DNA from: Paraflavitalea soli
GTDB taxonomy: Bacteria > Bacteroidota > Bacteroidia > Chitinophagales > Chitinophagaceae
DNA: 64,000 nt
Assembly: GCF_003555545.1 (NCBI RefSeq)
Contig: NZ_CP032157.1
Span: 3,538,546 to 3,602,545, forward strand
Direction: 5' to 3'
The notes beneath the pieces are model-generated. The model was not told the origin of the DNA. It saw only the letters and a program-made list of their open reading frames with translations, and did not search any database. This document shows, piece after piece, positions 44,757 through 64,000 of the stretch. Made by a program: the position numbers and the translations under genes. The number at the start of each line of letters is the position of its first letter. Positions within the stretch are counted from its first letter, which is position 1.

Positions 44757-44882
44757 CAATTTTTTACGCAAAAAGACGGTCCAAAGCCAACTGTATCGAA
44801 AGCGGACAGTAGTTGTAGCGGTAACGAACAGATTCGTACATATCAGTGGGCTAAGGTTCTGGAAATCATAGGCATTGCATTC

Positions 44883-44896
44883 TGGCACGTTGTTGC
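44883..44896 (+). promoter_or_regulatory. Near-consensus sigma-54 promoter TGGCAC-N4-TTGC
   Basis: TGGCACGTTGTTGC has both sigma-54 elements intact but with a spacer one base shorter than the usual TGGCAC-N5-TTGC. It points toward the adaptor gene at 45009, with a predicted start near 44908. The adjacent NtrC-like activator supports it. The rest of 44757-44882 shows no gene. Confidence 0.5.
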
Positions 44897-47441: not shown

Positions 47442-49868
47442 ATGATCTACAATTATCTGAAGATTGCGTTTCGCAGCCTGCTGAAGTACAGGTTTATCTT
47501 CTTCACGAACCTTTTTGGCCTAACCGTAGGATTTACCTGCTGTTTACTCATCTTTGTCTATATACTACATGAGGTAAGCTATGACAAGTATAATGACAAG
47601 GCTGACCGCATTTACAGGGTAACCCGCCTCTTCCGAAGCTCCGAAACAGGTGTCACCAACCTGCACCTGGGCGCTGTAGCGCCTCCCTTTGCCCCTTTAC
47701 TGGAAAATGATTACAAGGAGATAGAGAAGATCACCCGCATTCTGCCGGCAGGCACTATGACGCTTCGCTACCAGGACAAAGTATTCAATGAACCCGAGGT
47801 TGTTTTTGCCGATGAACAATTCTTTGACCTCTTCACCGTACAGGTAAGCAGCGGCAATAAAACCAGCGCACTGAAAGAGCCCAATTCGGTAATGCTGACG
47901 GAAGAGCTGGCACAAAAGTATTTTGGGAAGGAAGACCCCATGAACAAAATGATCCGGCTCGACAACCGGTTTAGTTTTAAGGTCACCGGCATCTTTAAGC
48001 CCTTACCTTCCAATGCTCATTTCCACCCCAACCTGCTGGTATCCTTCAACACTTTGAGGGATTCTACCATTTATGGAGAAAAGAACCTGCGCACCAACTG
48101 GGGCAACAATGCTTTTTATACTTACATGCTGCTGCCGGCCAACTATGATGCGTCTAAACTGGAAGCACAGTTCCCCGCATTCCTCGACCGGCACATGTCA
48201 AAACCCGGCGATGCGATAAAAGCTTCCCGCTGGACGCAGCTCTATCTGCAAAAGCTCACCGATATCCATCTACGCTCCCACCTCGATTCGGAATTAGACG
48301 AGAATGGCGATATCAAACGGGTATATGTATTCTCGGCCATCGCTTTGTTCATATTGTTGATCGCCTGTATCAACTACATGAACCTGTCTACCGCCCGTTC
48401 TGTATTGCGTGCCCGCGAAATAGGCATCCGCAAGGTAGTAGGCGCCGAACGAAAAGAACTTATCTTCCAGTTCCTCAGCGAGTCTGTCCTTATTACCTGG
48501 ATGGCCATGCTGCTGGCCTTTGTGCTCACCTGGCAGTTGGTACCCTTCCTCAATAAACTATCGGGCCAAACGCTTTCTATCACTGCTTTGTACCGGTGGC
48601 AAATATTGTTACCGGTATTGATAGCGCCCTTCCTGGTAGGCACCATTGCCGGCATCTACCCTGCCCTGTTCATGTCTTCCTTCAGACCAGTGAAAGTATT
48701 GAAAGGATTTTTGAAAACAGGCGGGGCCAATATCTCTTTCCGCCAGGTGCTGGTAACCGCACAGTTCTCCATTTCCATTATGCTCATCATTTGTACGGCA
48801 GTGGTGTTCCGTCAGCTCAGGTATATGCAGGAGAAATCACTGGGCTTCGACCGGGAGCATATTGTAACGATGTCTTACAACGATGGTCTCAACGACCGGT
48901 TCGATGCCTTCCGCACGGCCTTACTGACCAACAGCAATATTAAAAATACTGCCCGCTCTTCCCGCATTCCCACAGGACGCCTGCTGGATTCCCAGGGTGC
49001 TTCGCTGGAACAGGGCGACTCATTGGCGCCGGTTACCAGTGATATCAAGGGCCTGGCTACTGATCAGGATTTTATTAGCACCTATGGTGTAAAGGTGATA
49101 GCCGGACGGGCATTCTCCCGTGATTACGGACTGGATACTTCTGCCTATATGGTCAACCAGGCAGCTGTACAGGCCATGGGCCTGCCTTCTGCCGAAGCGG
49201 CCATTGGCAAAAACTTCAGCTACGGTGGTGACAGGGGAAAGATCATTGGTGTATTCAATGACTTCCATTTTGAATCACTACACCAGCGCATCATTCCCCT
49301 GGTAATGGGTATCCCGAAAGAAAAGGGCAATTATGCCAGGATATCCATAAAAGTGGCCGGCAACAATATGACGGCGGCTATTGCGCATATCGAAAGCACC
49401 TGGAAACAGTTCTTACCGGAAACGCCTTTCGAATTCACCTTCCTGGACGACCGTTTTGAGAATCTGTATAAATCAGAACAAAGACAGGGTACCATCTTTA
49501 CCATCTTTGCCGGTATAGCCATCGCCATTGCCTGCCTGGGCTTGTTTGGCCTGTCGGCCTTTGCCATCACCCAGCGCATCAAAGAGATCGGTATCCGCAA
49601 AGTGATTGGCGCTTCTGTTACCAGCATTGTAACCCTGCTATCCAAGGATTTCCTGAAGCTGGTGGCCATTGCTACCGTCATAGCCTTCCCCATTGCATGG
49701 TATGCTATGCACAATTGGTTACAGGATTTTGCGTATCGGAGCAATATGCCCTGGTGGATATTCCTGGCAGCAGGTATTATTGCAGTCATCATTGCTTTGG
49801 TGACGATTAGTATCCAGGCGATCAAAGCGGCTACGGCCAACCCGGTGAAGAGCTTAAGGAGTGAATAA
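47442..49868 (+). CDS. FtsX/MacB-type ABC permease 1
   Basis: 808 residues. Architecture: N-terminal TM segment (about 20-42), periplasmic MacB-type domain, three TM segments (about 285-425), a further TM, a second periplasmic domain, and three TM segments at the C-terminus. The FtsX coupling motif occurs twice, REIGIRKVVGAERKEL near 325 and KEIGIRKVIGASVTSI near 713, so the protein is an internal duplication. It ends NPVKSLRSE. Such permeases use ATP hydrolysis to drive periplasmic conformational change for export or lipoprotein/peptide extrusion. It is the first of seven paralogues and directly follows the ATPase. Confidence 0.93.
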   Translation: MIYNYLKIAFRSLLKYRFIFFTNLFGLTVGFTCCLLIFVYILHEVSYDKYNDKADRIYRVTRLFRSSETGVTNLHLGAVAPPFAPLLENDYKEIEKITRILPAGTMTLRYQDKVFNEPEVVFADEQFFDLFTVQVSSGNKTSALKEPNSVMLTEELAQKYFGKEDPMNKMIRLDNRFSFKVTGIFKPLPSNAHFHPNLLVSFNTLRDSTIYGEKNLRTNWGNNAFYTYMLLPANYDASKLEAQFPAFLDRHMSKPGDAIKASRWTQLYLQKLTDIHLRSHLDSELDENGDIKRVYVFSAIALFILLIACINYMNLSTARSVLRAREIGIRKVVGAERKELIFQFLSESVLITWMAMLLAFVLTWQLVPFLNKLSGQTLSITALYRWQILLPVLIAPFLVGTIAGIYPALFMSSFRPVKVLKGFLKTGGANISFRQVLVTAQFSISIMLIICTAVVFRQLRYMQEKSLGFDREHIVTMSYNDGLNDRFDAFRTALLTNSNIKNTARSSRIPTGRLLDSQGASLEQGDSLAPVTSDIKGLATDQDFISTYGVKVIAGRAFSRDYGLDTSAYMVNQAAVQAMGLPSAEAAIGKNFSYGGDRGKIIGVFNDFHFESLHQRIIPLVMGIPKEKGNYARISIKVAGNNMTAAIAHIESTWKQFLPETPFEFTFLDDRFENLYKSEQRQGTIFTIFAGIAIAIACLGLFGLSAFAITQRIKEIGIRKVIGASVTSIVTLLSKDFLKLVAIATVIAFPIAWYAMHNWLQDFAYRSNMPWWIFLAAGIIAVIIALVTISIQAIKAATANPVKSLRSE

Positions 49869-49874
49869 AACTAA

Positions 49875-49889
49875 AGAGGTGACACCTCT
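49875..49889. repeat. Short palindrome AGAGGTG-A-CACCTCT
   Basis: Perfect 7-bp arms around one base, 7 bp after the permease 1 stop. It lies next to the much longer palindrome at 49908. Confidence 0.6.
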
Positions 49890-49907
49890 CAAAACCTAAT
49901 CAACGAC

Positions 49908-49949
49908 CCAATAATCAATAATTATTAATTAATAATTATTGATTATTGG
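49908..49949. repeat. Perfect 42-bp palindrome, no spacer
   Basis: Every one of 21 base pairs matches from the centre at 49928/49929 out to CC/GG at the ends, and pairing breaks at 49907/49950. Apart from two C and one G-type pairs it is all A/T (arm CCAATAATCAATAATTATTA then A). It fills the spacer between permease 1 and the small lipoprotein. It could form a cruciform, an RNA hairpin, or bind a protein. No T-run suits a classical terminator. Confidence 0.9.
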
Positions 49950-49963
49950 CTTAAATAACAAAT

Positions 49964-50218
49964 ATGAAAAAGACAACGTTCCTCATTTCTCTCATACTGA
50001 TCACCCTGGCAGCCTGCAACCGGGGCACCACTATTAAGAAAGGCGTCAGCTACCAGGGCGATGTAATGCGCATAGAAGTATACGCAAGGATCGATGGCAG
50101 GAAAGTACAGGACTTTAAAAAAGAATACAATGTAGCCGGCATGGATAAAGAAGAGCGGGAAGCCATGGCAAAACAAATTATGGACTCGCTCAATATTCCC
50201 GACAACGCCGGCAAATAA
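49964..50218 (+). CDS. Small lipoprotein within the permease array
   Basis: 84 residues. A lipoprotein signal (MKKTTFLISLILITLAAC, Cys18) precedes a short charged domain (GDVMRIEVYARIDGRKVQDF, then MDKEEREAMAKQIMDSL). It lies between permeases 1 and 2, directly behind the 42-bp palindrome, on the same strand. It may be a cargo or accessory of the exporter. No family is recognised. Confidence 0.7.
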   Translation: MKKTTFLISLILITLAACNRGTTIKKGVSYQGDVMRIEVYARIDGRKVQDFKKEYNVAGMDKEEREAMAKQIMDSLNIPDNAGK

Positions 50219-50288
50219 GATCCATCTACCCTACATTGGCCATACCACCCTCAGTCAATAAGTTCTTTACCTAACCAATCAAAAGAGT

Positions 50289-52703
50289 ATGTTTAGCAAC
50301 TACATCAAGATCGCATGGCGCAATCTCTGGAAACACAAAGTGTTTGCCGTGATTGTTATCTTCGGTATGGCCATTGCATTTGCAGCGTCGCTGCTCCTCT
50401 CCCTTACAGCCTATCATGAACTGTCGTACGATCAGTTTCATGAGCACAAAAAAAATCTGTATCAGCTCTATTTCCATGAGCAACATGCCAAAGGCGATGA
50501 GACCAGCTCTACCATGCCGGTTCCCCTTGCTCCGGCGCTAAAGGCAGAGTACCCGGCCATCAAATACATTTCCCGCTATGGCAGCAGCGCCACGGATATG
50601 GTGCGCTACAACAACAAGGAGATGGACCTTAGTGTGCGTACGGTAGACCCCGACTTCCTGCGCATGTTCACCTTCCCCATCACAGCCGGCAATGCCAATA
50701 CCCCCCTGGGCAAGCTCAACGATATGGTGATCACCGCCCATTGTGCGCAGGTGTTATTTGATAAGGAAGACCCCATCGGTAAGACCATCGAACTGAAATC
50801 AGGCAATACCTGGTCGGCATTTACCGTAACAGCCGTAACCAGCGATTTTCCCAACAACTCCAGCCTCACTTTCGATATCCTCACCCGGTTTGAGCATTTC
50901 CACGATTACCAGGAATTAAAAGACGTATGGGATTCCGACAACCACGAGGTATTTATACAATTGAAAGACGATGTGAAACAGGCGACCTTCGAAAAGCAGA
51001 CGCCTTCCTTTATCCATAAATACTATACCGATAAACTTACCAACTTAAAACGGGATGGCGCTCAGCCCGATAAAACGGGCGAATTAGTAAGGCTGCAAAC
51101 CATTCCCTTCACGGATATACACTTCAGAACAGAGAGCAACACTGGCGCAGGCGCCAGCAGGTTCTATGCCTACATGCTGCTCATCATCAGCGGCTTTATC
51201 CTATTCATTGCCTGTGTCAATTTTGTTAACCTCTCGCTGGCCCGTTCCTTTACACGCTCTAAAGAAATAGGTATCCGAAAAGTAATGGGCGCCCGGCGCT
51301 GGCAGCTCATTACCCAGTTTTGGGGCGAAGCATTGATCGTTAGTTTGTTTGCCCTCATAACAGGTCTTGCCATCGCTTACCTGTTATTGCCTTATTATAA
51401 ACAGGTATTTTACCAGGCCTTGTCGGTCGACATGTTGCGTTCGCCCCTGATCATTGCTTATATATTGGGAGGCTTTTTACTGGTTACTCTTTTTGCCGGA
51501 GGTTATCCCGCCTGGATGGTGTCGGCATTTAATACGATCATGACCGTAAAAGGCAAATTGCCGGTGGGCAAATCAAACCGCGTGCGCAATACCCTGATGG
51601 TAGTGCAGTTTGTATTGTCTTCTTTACTCATCATCTGTACCATGATCGTTTGGCAGCAGATCAATTACCTGCGTACCAAACCACTGGGCTACAATAAGCA
51701 ACAGGTGATCAGCCTGCCCATTGGCGGCACCATGGACAGTGAGCGGGCCCTGAGCCTGATGCGTGACCGCCTTGCCCGTGAATCCCGTGTTGTAAGTGTT
51801 ACAGGTACCGATATGAATATAGGCCGCGGCCGGGATGGCTCTTCCACGACATCTATGATGGGATTCGATTATAAGAACAAAGGGGTAAGAACACATTGGC
51901 TGCGCATTGATTATGATTACCTGAAAACGATGGACATCAAGCTGCTTTCGGGCCGTGACTTTTCCCGCAGCTATGGCATGGACACTGCTGGTGTGCTCAT
52001 CAATGAGACCATGGCTAAGCAGCTCGACGAAAAAGATCCGCTCACAGCAACGCTTAACCTCGATGGCTCCCAATTAAAGGTGTTGGGCGTGGTAAAAGAT
52101 TTCCATTTCAAATCACTGCACCGTGAGCTGGCCCCACTGACCATGATGGTAAGGCCCAACTGGCCGGTTTCTTACATTTTCGTGCGGGTCCAACCGGATA
52201 ACCTGCCGGCCTCCATCGAAGTCATCAAAAATGCCTGGAAGGAAGTAAATCCCAAAGCGCCTTTCCTGGGTTCCTTCCTCGACGAGAATACCGATCGTAC
52301 CTACAACAAAGAAACCCGCTTGTCTAAAATATTTATGAGTGGCGCCGTATTGGCCATCCTCATCTCCTGCATGGGTCTGTTTGCCATTGCCCTGCTGGTT
52401 ATCCTGCAACGCACCAAGGAGATCGGTATCCGGAAGGTGCTGGGCGCCAGCGTGCCGCACCTTGTGGGACTGGTATCCAAAGACTTCCTCGTGCTGGTAT
52501 TGGCAGCTATTGTGATTGCTACTCCCATTGCCTGGTATGCCATGAACAGCTGGCTCCAGTCATTTTACTACCGGATCAATATTTCCTGGTGGGTATTTGC
52601 CCTGGCAGGCGTAATCGCCCTATTGATCGCATTCATTACACTCAGCCTGCAATCCGTGAAAGCCGCGATGAAGAATCCCGTGAATGCCTTACGGAGTGAA
52701 TAA
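50289..52703 (+). CDS. FtsX/MacB-type ABC permease 2
   Basis: 804 residues, beginning MFSNYIKIAWRNLWKHKVFA. The two coupling motifs read KEIGIRKVMGARRWQLITQF and KEIGIRKVLGASVPHLVGLV. It is the most divergent of the complete copies at its C-terminus, ending NPVNALRSE instead of NPVKSLRSE, and its first motif lacks the usual Ser/Glu before the helix (FWGEAL). It follows the small lipoprotein by 70 bp. Confidence 0.92.
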   Translation: MFSNYIKIAWRNLWKHKVFAVIVIFGMAIAFAASLLLSLTAYHELSYDQFHEHKKNLYQLYFHEQHAKGDETSSTMPVPLAPALKAEYPAIKYISRYGSSATDMVRYNNKEMDLSVRTVDPDFLRMFTFPITAGNANTPLGKLNDMVITAHCAQVLFDKEDPIGKTIELKSGNTWSAFTVTAVTSDFPNNSSLTFDILTRFEHFHDYQELKDVWDSDNHEVFIQLKDDVKQATFEKQTPSFIHKYYTDKLTNLKRDGAQPDKTGELVRLQTIPFTDIHFRTESNTGAGASRFYAYMLLIISGFILFIACVNFVNLSLARSFTRSKEIGIRKVMGARRWQLITQFWGEALIVSLFALITGLAIAYLLLPYYKQVFYQALSVDMLRSPLIIAYILGGFLLVTLFAGGYPAWMVSAFNTIMTVKGKLPVGKSNRVRNTLMVVQFVLSSLLIICTMIVWQQINYLRTKPLGYNKQQVISLPIGGTMDSERALSLMRDRLARESRVVSVTGTDMNIGRGRDGSSTTSMMGFDYKNKGVRTHWLRIDYDYLKTMDIKLLSGRDFSRSYGMDTAGVLINETMAKQLDEKDPLTATLNLDGSQLKVLGVVKDFHFKSLHRELAPLTMMVRPNWPVSYIFVRVQPDNLPASIEVIKNAWKEVNPKAPFLGSFLDENTDRTYNKETRLSKIFMSGAVLAILISCMGLFAIALLVILQRTKEIGIRKVLGASVPHLVGLVSKDFLVLVLAAIVIATPIAWYAMNSWLQSFYYRINISWWVFALAGVIALLIAFITLSLQSVKAAMKNPVNALRSE

Positions 52704-52765
52704 ATTGGGTGAGTGGTGGCAACTCACGGCCATTGGAATAAAAACAAAAAATTAAATGACAAGCT

Positions 52766-55138
52766 GTGTTTAAAAATTATTTCACCATCGCATTCCGTAA
52801 CCTGCTGAAAGGCAAGATGTATTCGTTGATCAATGTTCTTGGTCTCGCTACCGGAATGGCTATTGCTTTATTGATCGGCTTATGGATATGGGATGAAATG
52901 TCGTTCAACCGATACCACAGCAGCCATGACCGGCTGGCGCAGGTGATGACCACGCAAACCTTCAATGGCGAAACGGGTACCGGTTCGGCTGTATCCATTC
53001 CTTTGGGTATGGAATTACGCACTAAGTATACCAAAGACTTTAAGAACGTATCACTGGCTTCCTGGAATTTTGATCATATCCTCGCCGTAGGCGATAAAAA
53101 GATCAACAAGGCAGGCATGTGGGTACAACCGGAATTCCCTTCCATGTTCGCCCTGAAAATGCTGAAAGGTAACCAGGATGCTTTAAAAGATCCCTCCTCT
53201 GCCTTGCTCGCCCAGTCGGTTGCCCAAGCGCTTTTTGGCGATACCGACCCCATGGGCCAGGTGGTGAAATTTGATAACCAGTATGACATGAAGGTAGCGG
53301 GTGTATTTGAAGACCTTCCCCGCAATACCACTTTATTCGATACCAAACTCCTGATCTCCTGGGACAAATATATCACTACCGAACCCTGGCTGAAGAATTC
53401 CCTTACCCAATGGGACAATCATTCCTGGCAATTATTCGTACAACTCAACGACCACGTTGATGTTAATAAAACGACAGCCAAGATCAAAGACATAGCCAAA
53501 CAGCATGTAAAGGAAGGGGATGAACATGCTGTATTGCACCCCATGGACAATTGGCGGCTCTATAGCAAATTCACCAATGGTAAAGTAGATGGCGGCCGTA
53601 TAACATTTGTATGGCTGTTTGGCATTATTGGCGTATTTGTATTATTGCTGGCCTGCATCAACTTCATGAACCTTTCAACCGCCAGAAGCGAAAAACGGGC
53701 TCGGGAAGTAGGTATCCGTAAAACAATGGGTTCTCTGCGCGGCCAGCTTATAGCACAGTTCCTCGGAGAATCTGTGATCGTAGCCTTCATCGCTTTCATC
53801 CTGGCCATTGGCCTTACGCTGTTATCGCTGTCGTTCTTCAATAGCCTCGCCGATAAAGAGATGAGCATGCCCTGGAGTAATCCACTCTTCTGGCTGCTGG
53901 CATTGCTTTTCACTGTATTTACCGGCCTGGTATCGGGCAGCTATCCCGCCTTCTACCTCTCGCGTTTTGAACCGGTGAAAGTACTGAAGGGCACCTTCCG
54001 TACCGGGCGCTTCGCAGCGTTGCCACGCAAAATACTGGTGGTAATACAGTTTACCGTATCCATTGCCCTCATCATAGGCACCATCATTGTATTCAGGCAA
54101 ATTCAATATGCCAAAAGCCGCCCTGTAGGTTATACCCGTGAAGGGCTCATCGCTGTGAATATCAATACGCCTGAACTGTCTGGTCACTATGACGCGCTCA
54201 GGTCCGACCTGTTACAAACCGGCGTCGTAGAGAACATGGCCGAATCATCCAGTCCTGCGACCAACGTATGGAGCAACCAGATCGGTTTCGAGTGGAAGGG
54301 AAAAGATCCCAACGCCGTACCGCTCTTTGGCACCATAGCGGTAACGCATGATTTTGGTAAGACCATTGGCTGGCAGATAAAAGAGGGACGCGATTTTTCC
54401 AGGAATTATGGCACCGATACCGGCATGCTCATACTGAACGAAGCCGGTGTAAAACTTACCGGATTCAAAAACCCCGTAGGCCAGGTCATTAAGTGGAACG
54501 ACAAAGACCGGGTGGTAATAGGCGTGATAAAAGACATGATCATGGAATCGCCCTATACCCCCGTGAGACCTACTGTTTTTTGCCTTGACTATGGATGGAC
54601 CAATATCATTACCATACGCATCAAGCCCAACTCGCCTGTACGGGAAGCACTCGCTAAAATGGAACCCGTATTCAAAAAATACAATCCAGGCAGCCCGTTT
54701 GAATACAAGTTCACTGATGAGGAATACGCCAAAAAGTTCTCAGACGAAGAACGTATAGGCAACCTCGCCACTTTCTTCGCCATTCTCGCCGTCTTCATCT
54801 CCTGTCTGGGATTGTTTGGGCTGGCCTCTTTCGTGGCAGAACAACGTACCAAGGAAATCGGTGTACGCAAAGTGCTGGGAGCATCCGTGATGAACATCTG
54901 GCAATTGCTGTCTAAGGATTTTTTATCGCTGGTCATCATATCCTGCATCATTGCTATTCCGATAGCCTGGTATGTGCTGCATCAGTGGCTGCAACAGTAT
55001 GAATACCGCACTTCCATATCATGGTGGATTTTCACCATAGCGGGTCTTGGCGCCATGGCTATAGCATTGCTCACAGTGAGCTTCCAGGCTATCAAAGCAG
55101 CGGTGATGAACCCGGTGAAGAGCTTAAGGAGTGAATAG
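52766..55138 (+). CDS. FtsX/MacB-type ABC permease 3
   Basis: 790 residues from a GTG start (MFKNYFTIAFRNLLKGKMYS). No in-frame ATG precedes the conserved N-terminal NYF motif, so GTG is accepted. Coupling motifs are REVGIRKTMGSLRGQLIAQF and KEIGVRKVLGASVMNIWQLL. The first periplasmic domain differs strongly from permeases 1 and 2, suggesting different partners or cargo. Confidence 0.92.
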   Translation: MFKNYFTIAFRNLLKGKMYSLINVLGLATGMAIALLIGLWIWDEMSFNRYHSSHDRLAQVMTTQTFNGETGTGSAVSIPLGMELRTKYTKDFKNVSLASWNFDHILAVGDKKINKAGMWVQPEFPSMFALKMLKGNQDALKDPSSALLAQSVAQALFGDTDPMGQVVKFDNQYDMKVAGVFEDLPRNTTLFDTKLLISWDKYITTEPWLKNSLTQWDNHSWQLFVQLNDHVDVNKTTAKIKDIAKQHVKEGDEHAVLHPMDNWRLYSKFTNGKVDGGRITFVWLFGIIGVFVLLLACINFMNLSTARSEKRAREVGIRKTMGSLRGQLIAQFLGESVIVAFIAFILAIGLTLLSLSFFNSLADKEMSMPWSNPLFWLLALLFTVFTGLVSGSYPAFYLSRFEPVKVLKGTFRTGRFAALPRKILVVIQFTVSIALIIGTIIVFRQIQYAKSRPVGYTREGLIAVNINTPELSGHYDALRSDLLQTGVVENMAESSSPATNVWSNQIGFEWKGKDPNAVPLFGTIAVTHDFGKTIGWQIKEGRDFSRNYGTDTGMLILNEAGVKLTGFKNPVGQVIKWNDKDRVVIGVIKDMIMESPYTPVRPTVFCLDYGWTNIITIRIKPNSPVREALAKMEPVFKKYNPGSPFEYKFTDEEYAKKFSDEERIGNLATFFAILAVFISCLGLFGLASFVAEQRTKEIGVRKVLGASVMNIWQLLSKDFLSLVIISCIIAIPIAWYVLHQWLQQYEYRTSISWWIFTIAGLGAMAIALLTVSFQAIKAAVMNPVKSLRSE

Positions 55139-55196
55139 AGTACAAACAATGAGCCGTTTTAAAGAACGGTAAACAATCACAACTAATCGTAATAAA

Positions 55197-57572
55197 GTGT
55201 ATAGAAACTATTTCAAAACAGCATTCAGGAACCTGTGGAAACACAAGGCTTTCTCCTTCATCAACATCATGGGGCTCACAGTGGGCATGACAGCCTGCTT
55301 CCTCATCTTCCTCTACGTTAGGTTTGAATTGACCTACGACGCATTTAATACCAAGGCCGACCGCATATACCGGGTGGTAACGGATATCAAAACACCATCG
55401 GAGGTCCTCAAGGCCAGCGGCCCCGCCTGGGCCGTACCTCCTAACATGAAAGATGAGTTTCCCGAAGTGGAAGCTTTTGTGCGTATCAGCAACCAGGATA
55501 TGCTCGTAAGAAAAGGAGACATCAAGTTCCAGGAAGAAAATGCAGCCTTTGCCGATTCAGCCTTTTTCCAGGTATTTGACATCAGGCTCCTGCAGGGCGA
55601 TCCTAAAAAAGTACTCAATGACCAGATGAGTGTGGTGCTTTCGGAAACGGCTGCCAAAAAATACTTCGGCAAGAACAATCCCGTAGGACAAACTTTGTTG
55701 TTTACCAATGATGGCATTCCCGCTACGGTAAAAGGCGTGATGGAAGATATGCCCGAGAACTCACAGGTAAGGGCCGATATACTGGTATCCATGAGTACCC
55801 TTACAGGAAGGTTTAATCCCGGGCTGGATGGACAATGGGGCAATTATGGTTCTTCTGCCTATATCCTGTTGAAACCACACACCAATGCCAAAGCGCTGGA
55901 AGCCAAATTGCCGGCCTTTATAAAAAAACGCAATGGCAAGGAAGAGCAGCAAAGCCAGATGTATGCTACCCTTCTACTGGAGCCGCTGCGCGAAGTATAC
56001 CTGTATTCTACCCGCGGAGGGTCGGGCAATATCAATAACGTGTATATTTTTTCGATCATCGCCATCTTTATCCTGCTCATTGCCTGCATCAACTTTATCA
56101 ACCTCACGACGGCCCGTTCCACTGAGCGCGCCAAAGAAGTAGGTATCCGGAAAGTAGCAGGCGCCGGCAAACCGCAATTGATCCGGCAGTTCATTGGCGA
56201 ATCGGTGATCATTTGCCTGATCTCCTTCTTACTCACCCTGGGGCTCGCGGCCTTATTACTACCGCTCTTCAACCAACTTGCGGGCAAGCAGGTAAGTGAG
56301 GGAATATTCAGCAACCGTCAATATATAGGCCTGTTGTTCCTGGCAGCGGTGGCCATCGGCTTGCTGGCTGGCATCTACCCTGCCCTCGTATTGTCTTCCT
56401 TCAAACCGATCATTGTACTGAAAGGCCGTTTTGCTACCGGTGTGCGTGGCCTGTTGCTGAGAAAAGGACTGGTAGTGGCTCAATTCAGTATTTCTATAGC
56501 CCTCATTATTGGCACCATCATCGTATACCGCCAAATGAACTTTATGCGCAGCCGCGACCTTGGTTTCAACAAAGACCAAACGGTGATCCTTTCTACCGAC
56601 GGCGACCAGGGCAAAGATGCCTTCAAAGAGGCGCTTAAAAGCATCCCCTCCGTTAAGGCGGTATCGCTTTCTTCCAGTGCACCCGGTACCGGCAACCCGG
56701 CCGCTTATTCAGAAATTGAGAACAAAAAAGGTGACCTCCAGGTAGCCAACCTCGACCTCTATTTTGTAGACTTCGATTATATTCCACTGTATAATATCAA
56801 ATTGGCGGCAGGCCGCGCTTTCTCGCGTGATTTCCTCACCGATACCACCCAGGCCATGATAATGAATGAAACAGCAGTAAAACTGTTTGGCTATTCCTCC
56901 CCGGAGGAGGCCGTTGGCAGGCGCTTCAAACAATGGGGCCGGGAAGGAAAGATCATCGGCGTTATCAAAGACTTCCATTTCCGTTCCCTGCAGCAGGATA
57001 TCAAACCCCTCACCATGCGTATAGAGCCTGGTGGCTGCAATCTTGCCTCGGTTAAAATAGCCGCCGGCAATGTACCAGCTACCCTCGCCGCCATTGAGAG
57101 CAAATGGAAAAGCACCATGCCCAACCGGCCTTACAGCTACCAGTTCCTGGACGACCTGTTTGATCGCCAATACCGCGCCGAAGAAAGGTTTGGAAAACTT
57201 TTCCTCAACTTTGCCGTACTGGCCATCTTCATCTCCTGCCTTGGCCTGCTGGGTCTGGCAGCCTACAGCACCATGCAGCGCACCAAAGAGATTGGGGTAC
57301 GCAAAGTAATGGGCGCTTCCGTACCAAGCATCGTTAACCTGTTGTCAAAAGAATTCCTGAAACTGGTGGTTATATCATTCTTTATAGCAGCACCGGCAGC
57401 CTGGTATTTTATGACGCAATGGCTGCACGACTTTGCCTACAGAACACCGATAACCTGGTGGATATTTGCCGTAGCGGGCATCGCAGCACTCGTTATCGCC
57501 CTGACCACCATCAGTTTCCAGGCCATTAAAGCAGCACTAACCAATCCGGTGAAGAGTTTGAGAAGTGAGTAG
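55197..57572 (+). CDS. FtsX/MacB-type ABC permease 4
   Basis: 791 residues, again from GTG (MYRNYFKTAFRNLWKHKAFS). Coupling motifs KEVGIRKVAGAGKPQLIRQF and KEIGVRKVMGASVPSIVNLL. The spacer before it holds a small CCGTT-N6-AACGG hairpin. The last 10 residues match permease 1 apart from the first. Confidence 0.92.
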   Translation: MYRNYFKTAFRNLWKHKAFSFINIMGLTVGMTACFLIFLYVRFELTYDAFNTKADRIYRVVTDIKTPSEVLKASGPAWAVPPNMKDEFPEVEAFVRISNQDMLVRKGDIKFQEENAAFADSAFFQVFDIRLLQGDPKKVLNDQMSVVLSETAAKKYFGKNNPVGQTLLFTNDGIPATVKGVMEDMPENSQVRADILVSMSTLTGRFNPGLDGQWGNYGSSAYILLKPHTNAKALEAKLPAFIKKRNGKEEQQSQMYATLLLEPLREVYLYSTRGGSGNINNVYIFSIIAIFILLIACINFINLTTARSTERAKEVGIRKVAGAGKPQLIRQFIGESVIICLISFLLTLGLAALLLPLFNQLAGKQVSEGIFSNRQYIGLLFLAAVAIGLLAGIYPALVLSSFKPIIVLKGRFATGVRGLLLRKGLVVAQFSISIALIIGTIIVYRQMNFMRSRDLGFNKDQTVILSTDGDQGKDAFKEALKSIPSVKAVSLSSSAPGTGNPAAYSEIENKKGDLQVANLDLYFVDFDYIPLYNIKLAAGRAFSRDFLTDTTQAMIMNETAVKLFGYSSPEEAVGRRFKQWGREGKIIGVIKDFHFRSLQQDIKPLTMRIEPGGCNLASVKIAAGNVPATLAAIESKWKSTMPNRPYSYQFLDDLFDRQYRAEERFGKLFLNFAVLAIFISCLGLLGLAAYSTMQRTKEIGVRKVMGASVPSIVNLLSKEFLKLVVISFFIAAPAAWYFMTQWLHDFAYRTPITWWIFAVAGIAALVIALTTISFQAIKAALTNPVKSLRSE

Positions 57573-57610
57573 TAAATAGCTGGTAATAACAACCATAAAC
57601 ATTAAACACC

Positions 57611-60022
57611 ATGTTCAGGAATTATTTCAAGATCGCCTGGCGCAATGTGGTAAAGAATAAAGCCTTTTCCTTTATCAATGTCTTTGGCCTGTCTGTAGGC
57701 CTGGCCTGCTTTATGCTTATCGCCGCCTTTGTATATGACGAGCTCAGCTACGACCGTTATGCAACCAATGCCAGCCAGATATACCGGGTGGGTTTACACC
57801 TCGACGAAAATGGCGGCTCCACCGATTTTCCCATTGTGGATGCGGCCGTAGGACAAGGCATCAAAAATGCCTATGCTGAAGTTTCCAGTGTTACCCGGTA
57901 TGCAGGTGCAGGTTATATGTACATCAACTACAATGACAAAAAGTTCAAGGAAGAAAAAATAGCTTTCCTTGATTCCAACTTCCTGCAAACCTTTTCTATT
58001 CCACTGGCTGAAGGAAATGTAAACTCCGCACTTACCGATCCTTTTTCCATTGTGATCTCCAGGGCTACCGCTATTAAATATTTCGACAAAGGATCGGCAC
58101 TCGGCAAACTGCTGGTGTCAGATGGCCGGGCATATAAGGTGACCGGGGTGTTTGAAAAGATACCCGGCAATTCCCATTTCCATTTTGATATAGCTATCAG
58201 CATGTCGAGCCAGCGCCAACGCACGGAGACCTGGAGCAATATTTCGCACTTCACCTACCTCACGCTGATACCTGGCGCCAACCCCAAACAATTGGAGGCC
58301 AAACTGCCACAGCTGGTAGCGAAATTTGTTGTACCGGAAATACAACACGATATGGGTGTTTCCCTGGCTGAAGCACAAAAATCGGTGAACACTTTCCGCT
58401 TTTACCTGCAACCCCTGACGGATATTCACCTGCGCTCCAATACAAAATATGAACTGGAGCCCAACGGAGACATCAATTACCTCTACATCTTTGGGGCCCT
58501 GGCCGTTTTCATTCTATTACTGGCCTGTGTCAACTTCACCAACCTCTCCACTGCCAGCGCCGGCAAACGCTCCAAAGAAGTAGGCATCCGCAAAGTAATG
58601 GGTTCTTTAAAGGGACAGCTGATAGCCCAGTTCCTGGCCGAATCCATCCTGTTGAGCCTGCTGGCTGCGGTGATCGCATTGGCCATTGTCTACGCCGTAT
58701 TACCAGGCTTCAATCATCTTTCCGGTAAAGACATCGATATCCGCTTTTTCCTGCAGTACACTTCTTTATTGACCATTTTGGGCGTAAGCCTGCTCACCGG
58801 TATCCTTGCAGGCATCTATCCCTCCTTTTTCCTGTCGGCCTTTAAGCCTATCAAAGTTTTAAAAGGGGCCTTGTCAATACAACCCCGCCGGAGCTTACTG
58901 CGCGGCAGCCTGGTTGTTTTCCAGTTTGTAGTATCGACCGCACTCATCATTTCCACTATCGTCGTGTACCGGCAATTGCATTTTATGCAAAACCAAAAAC
59001 TGGGATACGATAAGGAGCAGGTACTCATCATCCAGGACACCTATGATGGCCTGGGTAACAATGAACCGGCATTCAAACAAAGCTTGTTACAGGATAACCG
59101 CATAGTAAATGCTTCCATTTCCGCCTCCGTTCCCGTAAGAGGCCGTATCAATGGTACGCAGATCTACGCCAAACCGCTTCAGCAGAACGATCCCCATAAA
59201 GAGATCCAGACCTCCATTTATAATATTGATTATAACTACATACCCACTTTGGGTATGAAGATCATAGCAGGCAGGAACTTTTCATTGGATTATCCATCCG
59301 ATTCGTCTGGCGTACTCATCAACGAAACAGCTGTACGGGAATTGGGCATCAGTGGCAACCCTATTGGCCGTACCATTGTACGCTCAGGCCGGCAGGAATT
59401 TAATATTGTAGGTGTTGTGCGGGACTTCCACTTCAGCTCCGCCAAACAGAAGATCGCTCCGCTCATTATGTTGCCCGGCGGCAATGGCGGATCTGTTATT
59501 GCTAAAATAAAGACTACTGATATCAAAAGCTTCCTGGCCGATACCAAACAGAAGTGGGAATCATTCAGCCCCGCCACACCATTCAGCTATACATTCCTGG
59601 ATGATCGTTTTGCGTCCCTGTATGCAGCCGAAGAAAAGAGCGGTCAGATCTTTACCATATTTGCCCTCATTTCCATTGTGATCGCCTGCCTGGGCCTGTT
59701 TGGCCTGGTAGCCTATACCATAGAACAACGCACCAAAGAAATTGGCGTTCGGAAAGTATTGGGCGCGTCCGTACAACAGGTACTGTTGCTGGTATCCAAA
59801 GAATTCCTGTACCTGGTGCTGATCGCATTTGTAATTGCCATCCCCACTACCTGGTGGTTCATGAACAAGTGGCTGCAGGACTTTGCTTATCGTACCAATA
59901 TCAATGCATGGGTATTTGTAATGGCCGGCATCATCGCCCTGTGCATAGCCGTTTTCACCATCAGTTTCCAGGCTATTAAAGCAGCATTGATGAATCCGGT
60001 CAGGAGTTTAAGGAGTGAGTAG
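57611..60022 (+). CDS. FtsX/MacB-type ABC permease 5
   Basis: 803 residues from ATG (MFRNYFKIAWRNVVKNKAFS). Coupling motifs KEVGIRKVMGSLKGQLIAQF and KEIGVRKVLGASVQQVLLLV. The first motif is nearly the same as in permease 3, which hints that these two are closer relatives. The gap from permease 4 is only 38 bp, the shortest in the array. Confidence 0.93.
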   Translation: MFRNYFKIAWRNVVKNKAFSFINVFGLSVGLACFMLIAAFVYDELSYDRYATNASQIYRVGLHLDENGGSTDFPIVDAAVGQGIKNAYAEVSSVTRYAGAGYMYINYNDKKFKEEKIAFLDSNFLQTFSIPLAEGNVNSALTDPFSIVISRATAIKYFDKGSALGKLLVSDGRAYKVTGVFEKIPGNSHFHFDIAISMSSQRQRTETWSNISHFTYLTLIPGANPKQLEAKLPQLVAKFVVPEIQHDMGVSLAEAQKSVNTFRFYLQPLTDIHLRSNTKYELEPNGDINYLYIFGALAVFILLLACVNFTNLSTASAGKRSKEVGIRKVMGSLKGQLIAQFLAESILLSLLAAVIALAIVYAVLPGFNHLSGKDIDIRFFLQYTSLLTILGVSLLTGILAGIYPSFFLSAFKPIKVLKGALSIQPRRSLLRGSLVVFQFVVSTALIISTIVVYRQLHFMQNQKLGYDKEQVLIIQDTYDGLGNNEPAFKQSLLQDNRIVNASISASVPVRGRINGTQIYAKPLQQNDPHKEIQTSIYNIDYNYIPTLGMKIIAGRNFSLDYPSDSSGVLINETAVRELGISGNPIGRTIVRSGRQEFNIVGVVRDFHFSSAKQKIAPLIMLPGGNGGSVIAKIKTTDIKSFLADTKQKWESFSPATPFSYTFLDDRFASLYAAEEKSGQIFTIFALISIVIACLGLFGLVAYTIEQRTKEIGVRKVLGASVQQVLLLVSKEFLYLVLIAFVIAIPTTWWFMNKWLQDFAYRTNINAWVFVMAGIIALCIAVFTISFQAIKAALMNPVRSLRSE

Positions 60023-60066
60023 AATACAAGTGTAACCAAATTCTATAGACTAATCTCATACAGATC

Positions 60067-62454
60067 ATGATCAAGAATTATCTCAAAACCGCCTGGCGGA
60101 ATCTGTGGAAGAATAAAACCATGGCGTTTATCAACATATTGGGATTGATGACGGGGATCTCCTGTTGTTTGCTGATCGGTTTGTATATCCAGCATGAATA
60201 CAGCTATGACCGGTTTCAGCAAAAGGGCGACCGTATTGCACGGGTATTGATGGAATACCGGTTTTCCAGTGGCGACTCCAAAAAGGTAAGCGTTACCAGT
60301 ACCAAGGTATTGCCTGTCTTTGTACGAACATTTCCACAGGTGGAAACAGGCGTGCGTATGTCAGATAGCAAACGCGTAGTGTCCCTGGGCGATAAGCAGT
60401 TTACAGAGAACCACTTTATGTTTGCCGACTCGACCTTCTTTGATGTATTCTCTTTTCAATTATTGCAGGGCCATCCCAAGGAGGCATTGTCTGGTATCAA
60501 TAAAGTAATACTAACAACCGCTACTGCACAAAAGTATTTCGGTGCAGAAAACCCGCTGGGCAAAATATTACTGGTAGGTGGCGATGCTGTGCCTTTTGAG
60601 GTAACAGGTGTGATGCAGAACTGTCCCTCCAACTCACAGATGAAATTTGATTTCCTGGCCTCCTTCTCATCACTGAAAGCCAACCAGGAAAAAACATGGT
60701 GGAATGCCAACTACACCACCTTCCTCTTGCTGAAGAACGAAGCAGCCAGTAAGACCCTGCAGACCAGCCTGTCCGCATATATGAAGAAAGAAATGGCAGG
60801 CACCAATGCTTCCATAGAATTCATCCTCGATCCCTTCAACAGGATACACCTCCATTCTGATTTTGACAGCTTTGAGCCCAATACCAATATCACTTACCTG
60901 TATATCCTTACCGGGGTAGCATTGCTCATACTGGCCATTGCCTGTTTTACCTATATCAACCTCAGCACCGCCCGTTCCATAGACCGCGGAAAAGAAGTAG
61001 GCATCCGAAAAGCCGTAGGCGCCCTGAGGCAACAGATATTCCGCCAGTTCATTGGTGAATCACTGTTGCTGTCCTTCTTAGCCGTATTGCTCAGCGCACT
61101 CGTGGTGATGCTGGTATTGCCTGCTTTCAACCAATTGGCCGGCACCGGCCTTTCTATGCGATCCTTACTGTCTCCTGCCATACTGGCTTTTATAGCCATT
61201 ATGGTGGCTTGCATCAGTTTCCTCGCAGGTAGCTATCCCGCCCTGGTATTATCCGCCTTCATACCTGCCAAAGTACTGAAAGGTGCCCTGAACAAAAATG
61301 GCTCCGGCAACTGGTTGCGCAAAACACTGATCGTTTTCCAGTTTGGCATTTCCGTTTTCCTGGTGATCGCCACTTTCGTGATACACCAGCAAATGCGTTA
61401 TATACAGGACAAAAAGCTGGGCTACGACCGCCAGCAGGTATTGGTATTGCCACTGGATAGCAAAATGCTAACATCTTTCAATACCATTAAAGAAGAATTT
61501 AAAACGATACCGGGCATTGTCAATGTATCCCGTTCGGGTAATCCGCCTACTTCCATTGTGAGCGGTTACAATATGCGTTCTTCTACGATGCCCGAGACCG
61601 ATAATATGTCGGTAACCGCCGACCTGATAGATGAAGACTATATCAAAACGATGGGCATGGAGCTCATTGCCGGCAGTAACCTCACTCGCCAGGATGTAGC
61701 CGATATATCGCGGGAAGATGATACCGTGAGGAATTTCCATTTTATCCTCAATGAATCAGCCGCCAAAGCACTTGGCTGGACACCTACAGAAGCCATCGGC
61801 AAAAAAATGTTCCTCGACGCAACACGCCCGGGCACGGTAAGGGGCGTAATAAAGGATTTTCATTTTCAATCCCTCCACTTAGCCATCCAGCCCCTGGTCT
61901 TGTTTCCTGAAATATGGGGCAGGAATGTACTGGTAAAAGTAACCGGCAATAATATGGCACAAACCATACAGGCGCTCCAGGCCAAATGGAAAACCCTGGT
62001 TCCCCATCGTCCTTTTGATTATCATTTCCTCGATGAGGATTACAATAAAATGTACAATGCCGAGATCCGCCTGGGGAAGATCATGAACCTGTTTGCAGCC
62101 ATTGCCATCGTGCTGGCTTGTATGGGACTATTTGGATTGTCGCACCATGCTATTCAGCAGCGCCAGAAAGAAATAGGTATCCGTAAAGTACTGGGCGCTT
62201 CAGTAGCACAATTACTGCTGCTCGTATCAAAAGGCTTTATGAAGCTCGTGCTCATTGCTTTTGCCATTACTGTACCCGCCACCTGGTGGGCTATGAATAA
62301 ATGGCTGGAAGATTTTGCTTATCGCGTGAACGTAAGCTGGCTGGTATTTGGCGTAGCCGGATTGCTGGTATTGCTGATAGCTGCTTTCACCGTGAGTTTC
62401 CAGGCCATCAAAGCAGCATTGTCCAATCCGGTGAAGAGCCTGAGAAGTGAGTAG
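60067..62454 (+). CDS. FtsX/MacB-type ABC permease 6
   Basis: 795 residues from ATG (MIKNYLKTAWRNLWKNKTMA). Coupling motifs KEVGIRKAVGALRQQIFRQF and KEIGIRKVLGASVAQLLLLV. Near 515-565 it carries an insertion-like acidic stretch (NLTRQDVADISREDDTVRNF) not seen at that place in the other copies. It ends NPVKSLRSE. Confidence 0.93.
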   Translation: MIKNYLKTAWRNLWKNKTMAFINILGLMTGISCCLLIGLYIQHEYSYDRFQQKGDRIARVLMEYRFSSGDSKKVSVTSTKVLPVFVRTFPQVETGVRMSDSKRVVSLGDKQFTENHFMFADSTFFDVFSFQLLQGHPKEALSGINKVILTTATAQKYFGAENPLGKILLVGGDAVPFEVTGVMQNCPSNSQMKFDFLASFSSLKANQEKTWWNANYTTFLLLKNEAASKTLQTSLSAYMKKEMAGTNASIEFILDPFNRIHLHSDFDSFEPNTNITYLYILTGVALLILAIACFTYINLSTARSIDRGKEVGIRKAVGALRQQIFRQFIGESLLLSFLAVLLSALVVMLVLPAFNQLAGTGLSMRSLLSPAILAFIAIMVACISFLAGSYPALVLSAFIPAKVLKGALNKNGSGNWLRKTLIVFQFGISVFLVIATFVIHQQMRYIQDKKLGYDRQQVLVLPLDSKMLTSFNTIKEEFKTIPGIVNVSRSGNPPTSIVSGYNMRSSTMPETDNMSVTADLIDEDYIKTMGMELIAGSNLTRQDVADISREDDTVRNFHFILNESAAKALGWTPTEAIGKKMFLDATRPGTVRGVIKDFHFQSLHLAIQPLVLFPEIWGRNVLVKVTGNNMAQTIQALQAKWKTLVPHRPFDYHFLDEDYNKMYNAEIRLGKIMNLFAAIAIVLACMGLFGLSHHAIQQRQKEIGIRKVLGASVAQLLLLVSKGFMKLVLIAFAITVPATWWAMNKWLEDFAYRVNVSWLVFGVAGLLVLLIAAFTVSFQAIKAALSNPVKSLRSE

Positions 62455-62505
62455 AAAACAAACAGCGAACCTTATAAGAACTATAACCCTCCATAAAGCG
62501 CACAC

Positions 62506-64000
62506 ATGATCAAAACATATTTCAAAACAGCCTGGCGCAATCTCCTGAAGCATAAAGCAGGCAGCATTATCAATCTGTTTGGCTTGACCATCGGCATGTC
62601 TGCCGCTGTATTCATATTCCTGTGGGTACGCAATGAATTGAGTTTCGACAATTACCATCCCCAGGCACAAAATATCTACCGGATCAAGAACCTTTTATCC
62701 GTCGATAAAACAAGCGTCTGGACCTGGGAAACCTCCCCGTATATGCTGGGTGAAAAGGCAAAAGCCGAGGTACCTGGAATACAATTGGTCACCCGCCTGT
62801 GGTCGCTGACCAATAACGGACCTGCCCTCACCGTCAACAACAAGCTGGTGAAAGAGAAAGCGGCAGCCTACATCGATGCAAACTGGTTCAAAGTTTTTCA
62901 CTATGATTTTCTCAGCGGCAGTGCAGATAACTTCAACCGCCACCCTTTTAGCCTGGTATTGACAGCTACAGCCGCCAGGAAATATTTCGACACCGAAAAC
63001 GCTGTAGGCAAGATCATTCATATAGATACCCTCGACTACCAGGTGCAGGGCGTGATAAAGGATTACCCTACCAATTCCAGTTTTGCCTATGATATGTTCA
63101 TCCCCCTGGCAGCCAAACATGCCAATGCCAAAAGTCTGAAGGATGATGAAACATGGAGCAACTTTAACTACCTCACTTTCGTGAGGTTGAACCCCTCGGC
63201 CAATCCACAAACTACTGCCACCAGGCTCAGGGCCATTTACAAAAAGAACAGGCAACAAGACAATACTGCTGTACAGCTAACAGCCCTGCGCGATATGCAT
63301 TTCGAAACAGGTCTGCAATCCTCACAACTGGGACATGGCAACCGGAAGGTGGTGAACATCTTTATGATATTGGGCATTGTGTTGCTGGTGATCGCCTGCA
63401 TGAATTACGTAAACCTTACCACTGCCAGGGCCACCATGCGCCTCAAGGAAGTAAGTGTGCGCAAGATCGTAGGCGCCGACAGAAAACACCTCTTCGGCCA
63501 GTTTGTACTGGAATCAGCATTGATAAGCCTGTTGTCCCTTGGCTTAACTTTATTGGTGATTAAGCTCTGCCTGCCTTTATTTAACCAGGTTACAGAAAGA
63601 AGATTTACCTTACCACTGTTATCATCTCCGTTATGGACCATCCTGGGCAGTACTTTCATAGCCAGCGTGCTACTCACCAGCATATACCCGGCCTTACTGC
63701 TGTCGTCCTTCCAACCCATTGCCGTATTCAGGGGCTCGGGCATCTTCCGGGTAAAAAATACTTCGCTTAGGAAAACACTGGTCGTATGCCAGTTTACCAT
63801 ATCCATTGTATTGATCGTGGCCACTATTGTGATCTACCGGCAAATGCAATTCATCCAACAGCAAAACGACCAATACGACAAATCACAGGTATTGACTTTT
63901 TCCATTCCCTGGTCCGACGCCATGAAAATGAAGAAACCTCAAAGAGAGGGGCTGGCCAAAAATATAGAACAGGCCCTCCGTTCACAGAGCGGAATAGAGA
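62506..64000 (+). CDS. FtsX/MacB-type ABC permease 7 (cut by window end)
   Basis: The ATG at 62506 opens MIKTYFKTAWRNLLKHKAGS, and the frame stays open to the window edge (498 codons). The visible part covers the N-terminal TM, the first periplasmic domain and the first TM bundle. Its coupling motif reads KEVSVRKIVGADRKHLFGQF, with Ser-Val replacing Gly-Ile, so it is the most divergent first motif in the array. The array may continue beyond the window. Confidence 0.9.
   Translation, partial: MIKTYFKTAWRNLLKHKAGSIINLFGLTIGMSAAVFIFLWVRNELSFDNYHPQAQNIYRIKNLLSVDKTSVWTWETSPYMLGEKAKAEVPGIQLVTRLWSLTNNGPALTVNNKLVKEKAAAYIDANWFKVFHYDFLSGSADNFNRHPFSLVLTATAARKYFDTENAVGKIIHIDTLDYQVQGVIKDYPTNSSFAYDMFIPLAAKHANAKSLKDDETWSNFNYLTFVRLNPSANPQTTATRLRAIYKKNRQQDNTAVQLTALRDMHFETGLQSSQLGHGNRKVVNIFMILGIVLLVIACMNYVNLTTARATMRLKEVSVRKIVGADRKHLFGQFVLESALISLLSLGLTLLVIKLCLPLFNQVTERRFTLPLLSSPLWTILGSTFIASVLLTSIYPALLLSSFQPIAVFRGSGIFRVKNTSLRKTLVVCQFTISIVLIVATIVIYRQMQFIQQQNDQYDKSQVLTFSIPWSDAMKMKKPQREGLAKNIEQALRSQSGIE

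Follow-up and report, generated by a model that had tools for sequence, protein, structure and literature searches.

How can a bacterium power several dozen export permeases when most of them are encoded far from any matching ATPase gene? This question is raised by a stretch of 64,000 nucleotides from Paraflavitalea soli (C1:3538546-3602545 of a single-contig 8.44-Mb genome, C1 being NZ_CP032157.1; hereafter 'the window'), the last part of which is filled by consecutive permeases of the FtsX/MacB type that follow one adaptor gene and one gene for a LolD-class ATPase. An earlier note on this DNA had suggested that alternative permeases draw on a common energy module. Our analysis supports this idea and extends it to 30 further permeases without a nearby LolD-class ATPase, 17 of which are preceded by an operator found in the array; the module, however, would consist of two ATPases, named ATP1 and ATP2 here, and not of one. 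We consider it probable that interchangeable MacB-like permeases, in the array as well as scattered over the chromosome, belong to one regulon and share the ATP1/ATP2 module. Judged from sequence, the two ATPases would physically drive all of these permeases. The result would be a tripartite export system of the MacAB-TolC kind that is built as a hub: a constant frame of sensor kinase, NtrC-like activator, adaptor, ATP1, ATP2 and TolC-type outer-membrane channel would serve exchangeable MacB-like permeases, 19 in the array and up to 30 scattered. The features of the locus are given below in window numbering, continued beyond position 64,000 (aa, amino acids; ORF, open reading frame).

41847-43193, minus strand: NtrB-like sensor kinase (Pfam HATPase_c, 2e-22)
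43317-44678, minus strand: NtrC-like response regulator (receiver, sigma-54 AAA+ at 7e-65 and Fis-type helix-turn-helix by Pfam)
44792-44830, plus strand: paired 17-bp operator half-sites, 22 bp apart, before the adaptor
44883-44896, plus strand: sigma-54-like promoter TGGCAC-N4-TTGC, 69 bp after the second half-site
45009-46265, plus strand: periplasmic adaptor of the HlyD/MacA/DarC class (Pfam HlyD_3 above, HlyD_D23 just below cut-off)
46655-47332, plus strand: ATP1, LolD-class ATPase (Walker A and B, LSGGQ, D-loop Asp and H-loop intact)
47442-49868, plus strand: permease 1, 808 aa, duplicated FtsX/MacB_PCD
49964-50218, plus strand: 84-aa ORF with a lipoprotein-like start, directly 3' of permease 1
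50289-52703, plus strand: permease 2, 804 aa
52766-55138, plus strand: permease 3, 790 aa
55197-57572, plus strand: permease 4, 791 aa
57611-60022, plus strand: permease 5, 803 aa; predicted model resembles YbbP and MacB
60067-62454, plus strand: permease 6, 795 aa
62506-64000 in the window, continuing to 64911, plus strand: permease 7, 801 aa
65078-99639, beyond the window: permeases 8-19 (array end at C1:3638184)
99809-100471 (C1:3638354-3639016): ATP2, second LolD-class ATPase, 220 aa, after permease 19
100508-101848 (C1:3639053-3640393): TolC-type outer-membrane efflux protein (OEP; PF02321, E 8e-49), after ATP2

A permease array in a constant frame

The earlier note had counted seven consecutive permeases of 790-808 residues and had expected the array to run past the window. 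The window indeed holds six complete permeases and the start of a seventh (47442-64000), and the sizes stand; counted beyond the edge, the array comprises 19 permeases in 52 kb on a single strand and extends ~36 kb beyond the window. One adaptor and one LolD-class ATPase precede the permeases, as had been described, and the NtrBC-like pair faces them on the opposite strand. The claim of a single ATPase holds for this end only, since ATP2 lies at the far end, followed by the TolC-type protein. With one more ATPase for 19 permeases instead of a one-to-one pairing, one ATPase per permease is ruled out. Adaptor, ATPases and OEP thus bracket the permeases, which points to the frame of a tripartite exporter, and the MacB-like domains in company of adaptor and OEP imply export from the periplasm.

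By Pfam, permease 1 carries two FtsX and two MacB_PCD stretches, that is, an internal duplication, and paired matches of the same kind were found on other permeases in family searches of the whole genome. The motifs NYxKxAxR, EIGxRK and NPVKSLRSE, which the earlier note had singled out, are present, but they are features of the family that also occur in 29 aligned scattered permeases, and the C-terminal one is not near-identical throughout the array (e.g. NALRSE, NPVRSLRSE). Pairwise identity among the 19 permeases is 25-53% (median 33%), indicating that the copies are old; together with 18/19 reciprocal colinear orthologues in a congener, this rules out recent tandem amplification. Intergenic gaps mostly measure 22-169 bp. 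Longer ones lie between adaptor and ATP1 (389 bp), after permease 1 (420 bp, holding the 84-aa ORF, which has no match in Pfam), after permease 13 (1.1 kb, with a LiaG-like protein) and after permease 17 (3.6 kb, with unrelated ORFs), and the ORF of permease 19 overlaps permease 18 if read from its first possible start. The LiaG-like protein (C1:3618576-3619622) scores 42.7 bits to NF049997 against a cut-off of 285 and has relatives in 13/23 arrays. Just 3' of the OEP, C1:3640805-3647293 encodes an Ig/PKD protein of 1803 aa, which carries a type IX secretion domain (CHU_C), and a PorP/SprF protein.

As to the regulators, the kinase has only a weak PAS_8 match (6e-4, below its cut-off), and its hydropathy suggests two closely spaced hydrophobic stretches near the N-terminus with almost no periplasmic loop between them. 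The start of the NtrC-like protein at 44678 was placed by its receiver domain, the ORF being open to 44912. It carries GAFTDA where GAFTGA is expected, and so do 55 of 72 rows of orthologues (GAFTGA in 1, another GAF string in 3, no match in 13). In NCBIfam, the adaptor exceeds the cut-off of RND_mfp and stays below that of DarC.

For comparison with relatives, a GTDB collection was scanned with the adaptor and the best 80 of 173 loci were kept (adaptor 67-92% identical), mostly from Chitinophagaceae and Sphingobacteriaceae. An ATP1 orthologue, 82-100% identical, lies 3' of the adaptor in 80/80 loci (in L066 a permease intervenes), the permease ORFs match array members at 31-84%, and of the 64 loci with 6 kb or more upstream, 59 have both kinase and regulator facing the adaptor. 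We assembled a set of 30 genomes, namely P. soli itself (G000), four congeners and 25 of the 80 loci on longer contigs. All 30 encode one ATP1 and one ATP2 orthologue each (E<=1e-40; the ATP2 query was its last 156 residues), and G012 and G026 show a third ATPase match, 46% identical. ATP1 and ATP2 lie on one strand at most 80 kb apart in 19/30 genomes, P. soli included, and enclose 1 to 24 recognised permease ORFs: 1 in G019, 2 in G013, 3 in G010 and G025, 19 in P. soli, 23 in G012 and 24 in G001, whereby some counts include split ORFs and other genes occupy gaps in the runs. In G012, a further ATP1-like ORF of 619 aa (29% identical) stands ahead of ATP2. The ATP2-OEP pair is located elsewhere in ten other genomes, in five of these without a permease in the fetched stretch, and OEP directly follows ATP2 in 29/29 genomes fetched, which are all but G003. 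Within the genus, the permeases are colinear, with reciprocal orthologues of 18/19 in G001, 13 in G002 and 12 in G004; in other genera, only 2 (G005), 1 (G009) or 3 (G012) permeases correspond at >55% identity. By these comparisons, the frame is kept and the permease content is exchanged between genera. Orthologues of P. soli and G001 share 85% identity in their membrane parts and 74% in their periplasmic parts.

Of the proteins compared, ATP1 is the most conserved. In 14 genomes taken as Sphingobacteriaceae by name, it is 85-91% identical to the window copy, compared to 74-75% for RpoB, 76-79% for ATP2 and only 59-63% for a LolD-like control ATPase in the 11 of these genomes searched for it. 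Such conservation would be expected of a subunit with many partners, but may have other causes. In the arrays of G015, G017, G023, G026 and G029, the permease run contains or adjoins housekeeping-like ORFs, most of which share its strand; judged by sequence appearance alone, these are RecR-like, Trp-enzyme-like, glycosyltransferase-like and SDR-like.

Scattered permeases and a shared operator

The whole genome holds 102 PF12704 and 110 PF02687 matches, as opposed to 11 ATP1-like ATPases (E<=1e-30). Outside the array, we retrieved 31 duplicated permeases together with a few kb of flanking DNA. Thirty of them are related to array permeases (BLAST E<=1e-5), which brings the related permeases to 49; the 31st, unrelated to the array by BLAST, adjoins a YbbA-like ATPase. 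Near none of the 30 is there a LolD-class ATPase, the nearest of the 11 places being ~48 kb off, and a shared ATPase pair would explain why these permeases do without one of their own. Scattered and array permeases are intermingled in a tree of 102 sequences, suggesting that genes moved between array and chromosome. The earlier note had pointed to periplasmic domains that differ from copy to copy. Trees of periplasmic and membrane parts are mostly one tree, with 37 strong splits in common, and the periplasmic domains are no free cassettes: only 3/48 strong membrane-part clades conflict, which rules out free swapping. At one scattered locus (L170:1482-7064, C1:6771482-6777064), OEP, adaptor and permease stand in a row without an ATPase, and the operator lies between adaptor and permease.

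The operator was recognised as a conserved block, TGTATCRAAAGCGGACA, in an alignment of eight adaptor upstream regions, that of the window included. Its half-site pattern occurs at least once in 75/77 adaptor upstream regions of other species (shuffle mean 0.05) and at least twice in 39/77, and 39/40 neighbouring pairs are 22 bp apart. A weight matrix was built from these 77 regions, our own genome being excluded, and the threshold (19.6) was set at the tenth percentile of sites; about 1.4 Mb of the 8.44-Mb chromosome were scanned with it. In the array stretch, operators lie at 44792 before the adaptor, at 64926 before permease 8 and at 94451 before permease 18. At the first of these, the half-site at 44792 scores 26.0 and that at 44814 scores 17.2, under the threshold. 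Three operators for 19 permeases, and not a separate promoter for each as the earlier note had named as a counter-case, would make three transcription units: adaptor to permease 7, permeases 8 to 17, and permease 18 to OEP.

In 514,401 bp of other loci of the genome, the matrix yielded 18 matches. Seventeen of them are followed at 108-161 bp by the predicted start of a permease (16 permeases; starts predicted by rule, that of L165 recomputed to 142 bp), and the 18th (L164) lies 472 bp before the aligned N-terminus and 133 bp before the first Met of the ORF. The binomial P of 2e-37 for 17/18 matches refers to 200-bp windows whose size was picked after seeing the distances. The operator thus stands upstream of 17/30 scattered permeases, and three more have a weak site. 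As a control, 800,000 bp of evenly spread DNA gave 1 match; it lacks the promoter element and sits where an unrelated gene ends. Across 29 genomes, own included, the stretches holding array and ATP2 (1.19 Mb) contain 49 matches, 46 of these outside our own genome; 46/49 lie within 300 bp and 49/49 within 404 bp upstream of a permease, adaptor or ATP2 gene of like orientation, with the reservation that the adaptor matches of G002, G004 and G018 overlap the training set of the matrix. ATP2-OEP pairs without a permease in the fetched stretch are among the sites, and the operator directly precedes ATP2 in 19/29 genomes and the last permeases ahead of ATP2 in 5. Twenty stretches of more distant genomes gave 6 matches at a laxer threshold of 15, in 4 stretches and all near frame genes.

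Which protein would read this operator? Position and type suggest that the NtrC-like protein binds it. The promoter-like element before the adaptor, TGGCAC-N4-TTGC, is spaced one base shorter than the canonical sigma-54 consensus TGGCAY-N5-TTG. In the 77 adaptor upstream regions, the N4 spacing was found 16 times (shuffle 0.1), N6 9 times (shuffle 0.15) and the canonical N5 not once (0/77). TGGYAY follows the last half-site at 67-72 bp in 13/17 distinct operators of scattered loci, in 63/88 adaptor loci and in 24/44 operators of other genomes' arrays (~0.02 expected each), and a further group lies at 90-93 bp, a distance that would fit a weak second half-site in between; the operator at permease 8 has no TGGYAY match. 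RpoN is present in 30/30 genomes, and a matrix study from 2025 found sigma-54 enrichment of COG0577 permeases in Bacteroidia (PMC12316311). The GAFTDA activator and the one-base-closer -24/-12-like promoters perhaps represent a matched change. Bacteroidota promoters follow the pattern TTG-N16-24-TAnnTTTG; between the genes, this pattern is fully matched nowhere but in the 3.6-kb gap ahead of permease 18, and the adaptor has no such match upstream. Generic promoter-like sites showed no excess (26 vs 28.9 in shuffles) and terminator-like sites a slight one (28 vs 20.5, standard deviation 5.5); neither was put to use.

Two unlike ATPases and two unlike coupling elements

Neither ATP1 nor ATP2 has lost Walker A, LSGGQ, the Walker B Glu or the H-loop. 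At 29 positions, each of the two has one residue in >93% of sequences while differing from the other (78 ATP1 and 31 ATP2 sequences). Such fixed differences affect the signature flank (R149, which is L in 30/31 ATP2 and I in one), the surroundings of the Q-loop (91-93, 104, 106) and the D-loop, in which D173 is N in 31/31 ATP2. Seven more distant ATP2 have H (6) or Q (1) at the D-loop position, and 14/14 ATP1-type sequences of those stretches keep D; altogether, the D-loop Asp is replaced in 38/38 ATP2 and kept in 92/92 ATP1-type sequences. Two different ATPases with fixed differences at the loops of the ATP site are a trait of heterodimeric ATP-binding cassette (ABC) transporters. We searched 295 genomes of the class, scoring the best ten candidates per genome. 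An ATP1-like match (E<=1e-75) was obtained in 49/295, four of these being only 53-56% identical, and ATP2 in 21/295, all 21 of which also have ATP1 (at least 66% identical).

On the side of the permeases, a predicted model of permease 5 (pLDDT 83.7, pTM 0.77) shows a repeated order of helices and periplasmic domain. In fold comparison, the model came closest to YbbP of YbbAP and next to MacB, at low TM-scores over the whole chain (0.43-0.46 to YbbP). YbbP has two coupling helices, by which it binds two ATPases (PMC12646458). In 359 permeases of arrays and loci as well as 29 aligned scattered ones, each coupling stretch is conserved, and the two are unlike each other: half 1 reads RxKEVGxRKVxG...QFxxES, half 2 QRxKEIGIRKVLGAS...LLSKDF. 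As an internally duplicated pseudo-dimer with two different coupling elements, a permease would need two ATPase subunits, and unlike permease halves, unlike ATPases and the constant company of the latter suggest one ATP1 and one ATP2 per permease. It is possible, and we put it forward tentatively, that an obligate ATP1:ATP2 heterodimer docks on the unlike halves of any of the ~49 permeases, array and scattered; that the altered D-loop of ATP2 makes the pair asymmetric; that the origin of ATP2 let the permease set grow; and that the orphan duplicated permeases of Bacteroidota, perhaps also the acidobacterial set discussed below, are clients of one motor.

Could ATP1 and ATP2 instead form two separate homodimers, ATP1 driving most permeases and ATP2 a subset, e.g. 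the last ones, or a step tied to OEP? ATP2 retains Walker A, Walker B and LSGGQ and could work alone, it always stands beside OEP, in five genomes without a permease in the fetched stretch, and in six inspected genomes that have ATP1 and lack ATP2, seven loci place 1-3 permeases next to ATP1 (an adaptor is present at five of these loci), so that ATP1 can probably act without it. We nevertheless regard this arrangement as unlikely, as ATP2 never occurs without ATP1 (21/21), the pseudo-dimeric permease has two coupling elements differing in a fixed way, and the D-loop exchange, found in 38/38 ATP2, would hit both sites of a homodimer. In TAP, mutation of the D-loop Asp uncouples transport in one subunit and is tolerated in the other, and both mutations together abolish transport; the same source cites ABCG5/8, in which the change was without effect (PMC4242082). 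Alternatively, there may be no dedicated hub but a lineage-specific expansion in which each permease uses any available LolD-class ATPase. Nine other ATPases of this class are encoded in the genome, and broadly similar coupling motifs occur across the FtsX family. This explanation is quite improbable, given that ATP1 and ATP2 are those in frame and regulon, and that, with all but two ATPase places inspected, four of the other loci (L169, L176, L177, L179) have permeases of other types beside the ATPase and a fifth (L178) shows no array-like permease. Permease numbers also speak against it. Permeases of the ADOP type (acidobacterial duplicated orphan permease, TIGR03434; E<=1e-40) number 0-1 in 10 counted genomes with neither ATPase, 1-4 with ATP1 only (7 of 28 such genomes) and 2, 3, 5, 7, 9, 11, 13, 14 and, in five cases, at least 23 in 13 genomes with both (Mann-Whitney P 0.002 and 0.0002, ignoring phylogeny). 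A little less probable still is that all or some scattered permeases are sensors or envelope scaffolds which signal via the two-component system and are no ATP-driven exporters. BceB-like permeases act as sensors with kinases that have no periplasmic domain, and the kinase described here is of a similar build, but adaptor and OEP are part of the frame, and array and scattered permeases alike conserve both of the coupling elements that an ATPase requires.

The shared ATP1/ATP2 module thus appears the most plausible reading, and several observations weigh against it beyond the motifs of ATP2 and ABCG5/8. Ten of the 30 scattered permeases show no operator at all, weak sites included, and may depend on different partners or regulators; two (L148, L167) have a non-LolD ABC ATPase-like ORF, 24-30% identical, within a few kb, and another (L152) sits in a non-ribosomal peptide synthetase/polyketide synthase (NRPS/PKS) cluster having its own ABC exporter. 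In 5/29 genomes (G008, G010, G012, G016, G027), the operator was found neither at ATP2 nor at the last permeases, and 16/20 stretches of distant families lack it even at the laxer threshold. The -12-like part of the promoter and its spacing are non-canonical. The permease counts are uncorrected for phylogeny and stop at 'at least 23', and the genomes were hand-picked (n=30).

Two loci deserve separate mention. At L152:5200-7584 (C1:1771200-1773584), a permease without an operator lies between NRPS genes of a cluster of ~50 kb or more; we dropped this setting as proof of an ATPase acting in trans because of the exporter encoded in the cluster. L176 (C1:6147001-6159000), located a few kb from one of the two strong rpoN matches (C1:6162398), holds another NtrBC-like pair and an ORF weakly resembling an adaptor, along with two permeases of the single-FtsX type and an ATPase that shares 52% identity with ATP1.

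Known relatives and biological meaning

How does the system relate to those already described? By curated cut-offs it is a member of neither ADOP nor DarBCD, but it is of their kind. ADOP, likewise made up of duplicated FtsX permeases of ~800 aa, is the best NCBIfam match, nearly full length, for the seven permeases scanned; with 279-331 bits, none of the seven reaches its cut-off of 622.3, and no permease does in the 30 other genomes (0/30). The ADOP family forms large paralogous sets without adjacent ATPase genes. No LolD-class ATPase stands by the 30 scattered copies, as opposed to the two ends of the array; this array with its flanking ATPases and the common operator set the system apart from ADOP. 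The darobactin exporter DarB-DarC-DarD likewise has separate adaptor, LolD-like ATPase and permease (777-aa model), but one permease per ATPase. Its NCBIfam models (NF038007, NF038008, NF038010) are second-best for the permeases and best for ATPase and adaptor, and all equivalog cut-offs are missed (ATP1 298.9 and ATP2 244.7 vs 375, permeases 117-192 vs 700, adaptor 153.7 vs 450). MacAB-TolC shares MacB-like periplasmic and FtsX membrane domains, a HlyD-type adaptor and an OEP; unlike there, the ATPase is unfused, the permease internally duplicated and the permeases many per frame. For the working principle, group II ECF transporters offer an analogy: EcfA-EcfA'-EcfT serve many scattered S components, so that, as in the proposed hub, two different ATPases energise many scattered substrate-specific membrane proteins. 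These are importers of unrelated fold, however, with no homology suggested beyond the ABC ATPase. Sharing is also known from sugar ATPases such as MsiK, one ATPase serving several transporters. The type VII ABC system YbbAP(-TesA) has the duplicated pseudosymmetric permease, two coupling helices and two ATPase copies in common with the array, but differs in having one ATPase gene and one permease, and the description available to us mentions neither adaptor nor OEP (PMC12646458).

Put together, an envelope signal would lead the NtrC-like protein to bind the paired operator, and the frame and at least 17 scattered permeases would be switched on together from sigma-54-like promoters. Each permease would capture the shared ATPases, in the favoured arrangement one ATP1 and one ATP2, and expel its own cargo from the periplasm. 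The likeliest cargo would be envelope-active peptides or small molecules: by analogy, a kinase with hardly any periplasmic loop and the LiaG-like protein suggest a response to envelope stress or antimicrobials, and peptides as the cargo of some permeases are hinted at by the NRPS/PKS setting of the L152 permease and by the similarity to the darobactin exporter. Searches of the open-access literature for permease arrays, ADOP, ATPases shared between exporters, sigma-54 regulons of permeases and the darobactin exporter yielded no account of such a hub; duplicated orphan permeases figure there as 'of unknown function' (PMC11573002). If the proposal is true, these orphans gain a motor, a regulator and a testable operator together, and the principle of one motor and many modules, known from ECF importers, reaches ABC exporters. 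Loss of a single ATPase would then disable all permeases, which would provide a practical screen for the role of each one.

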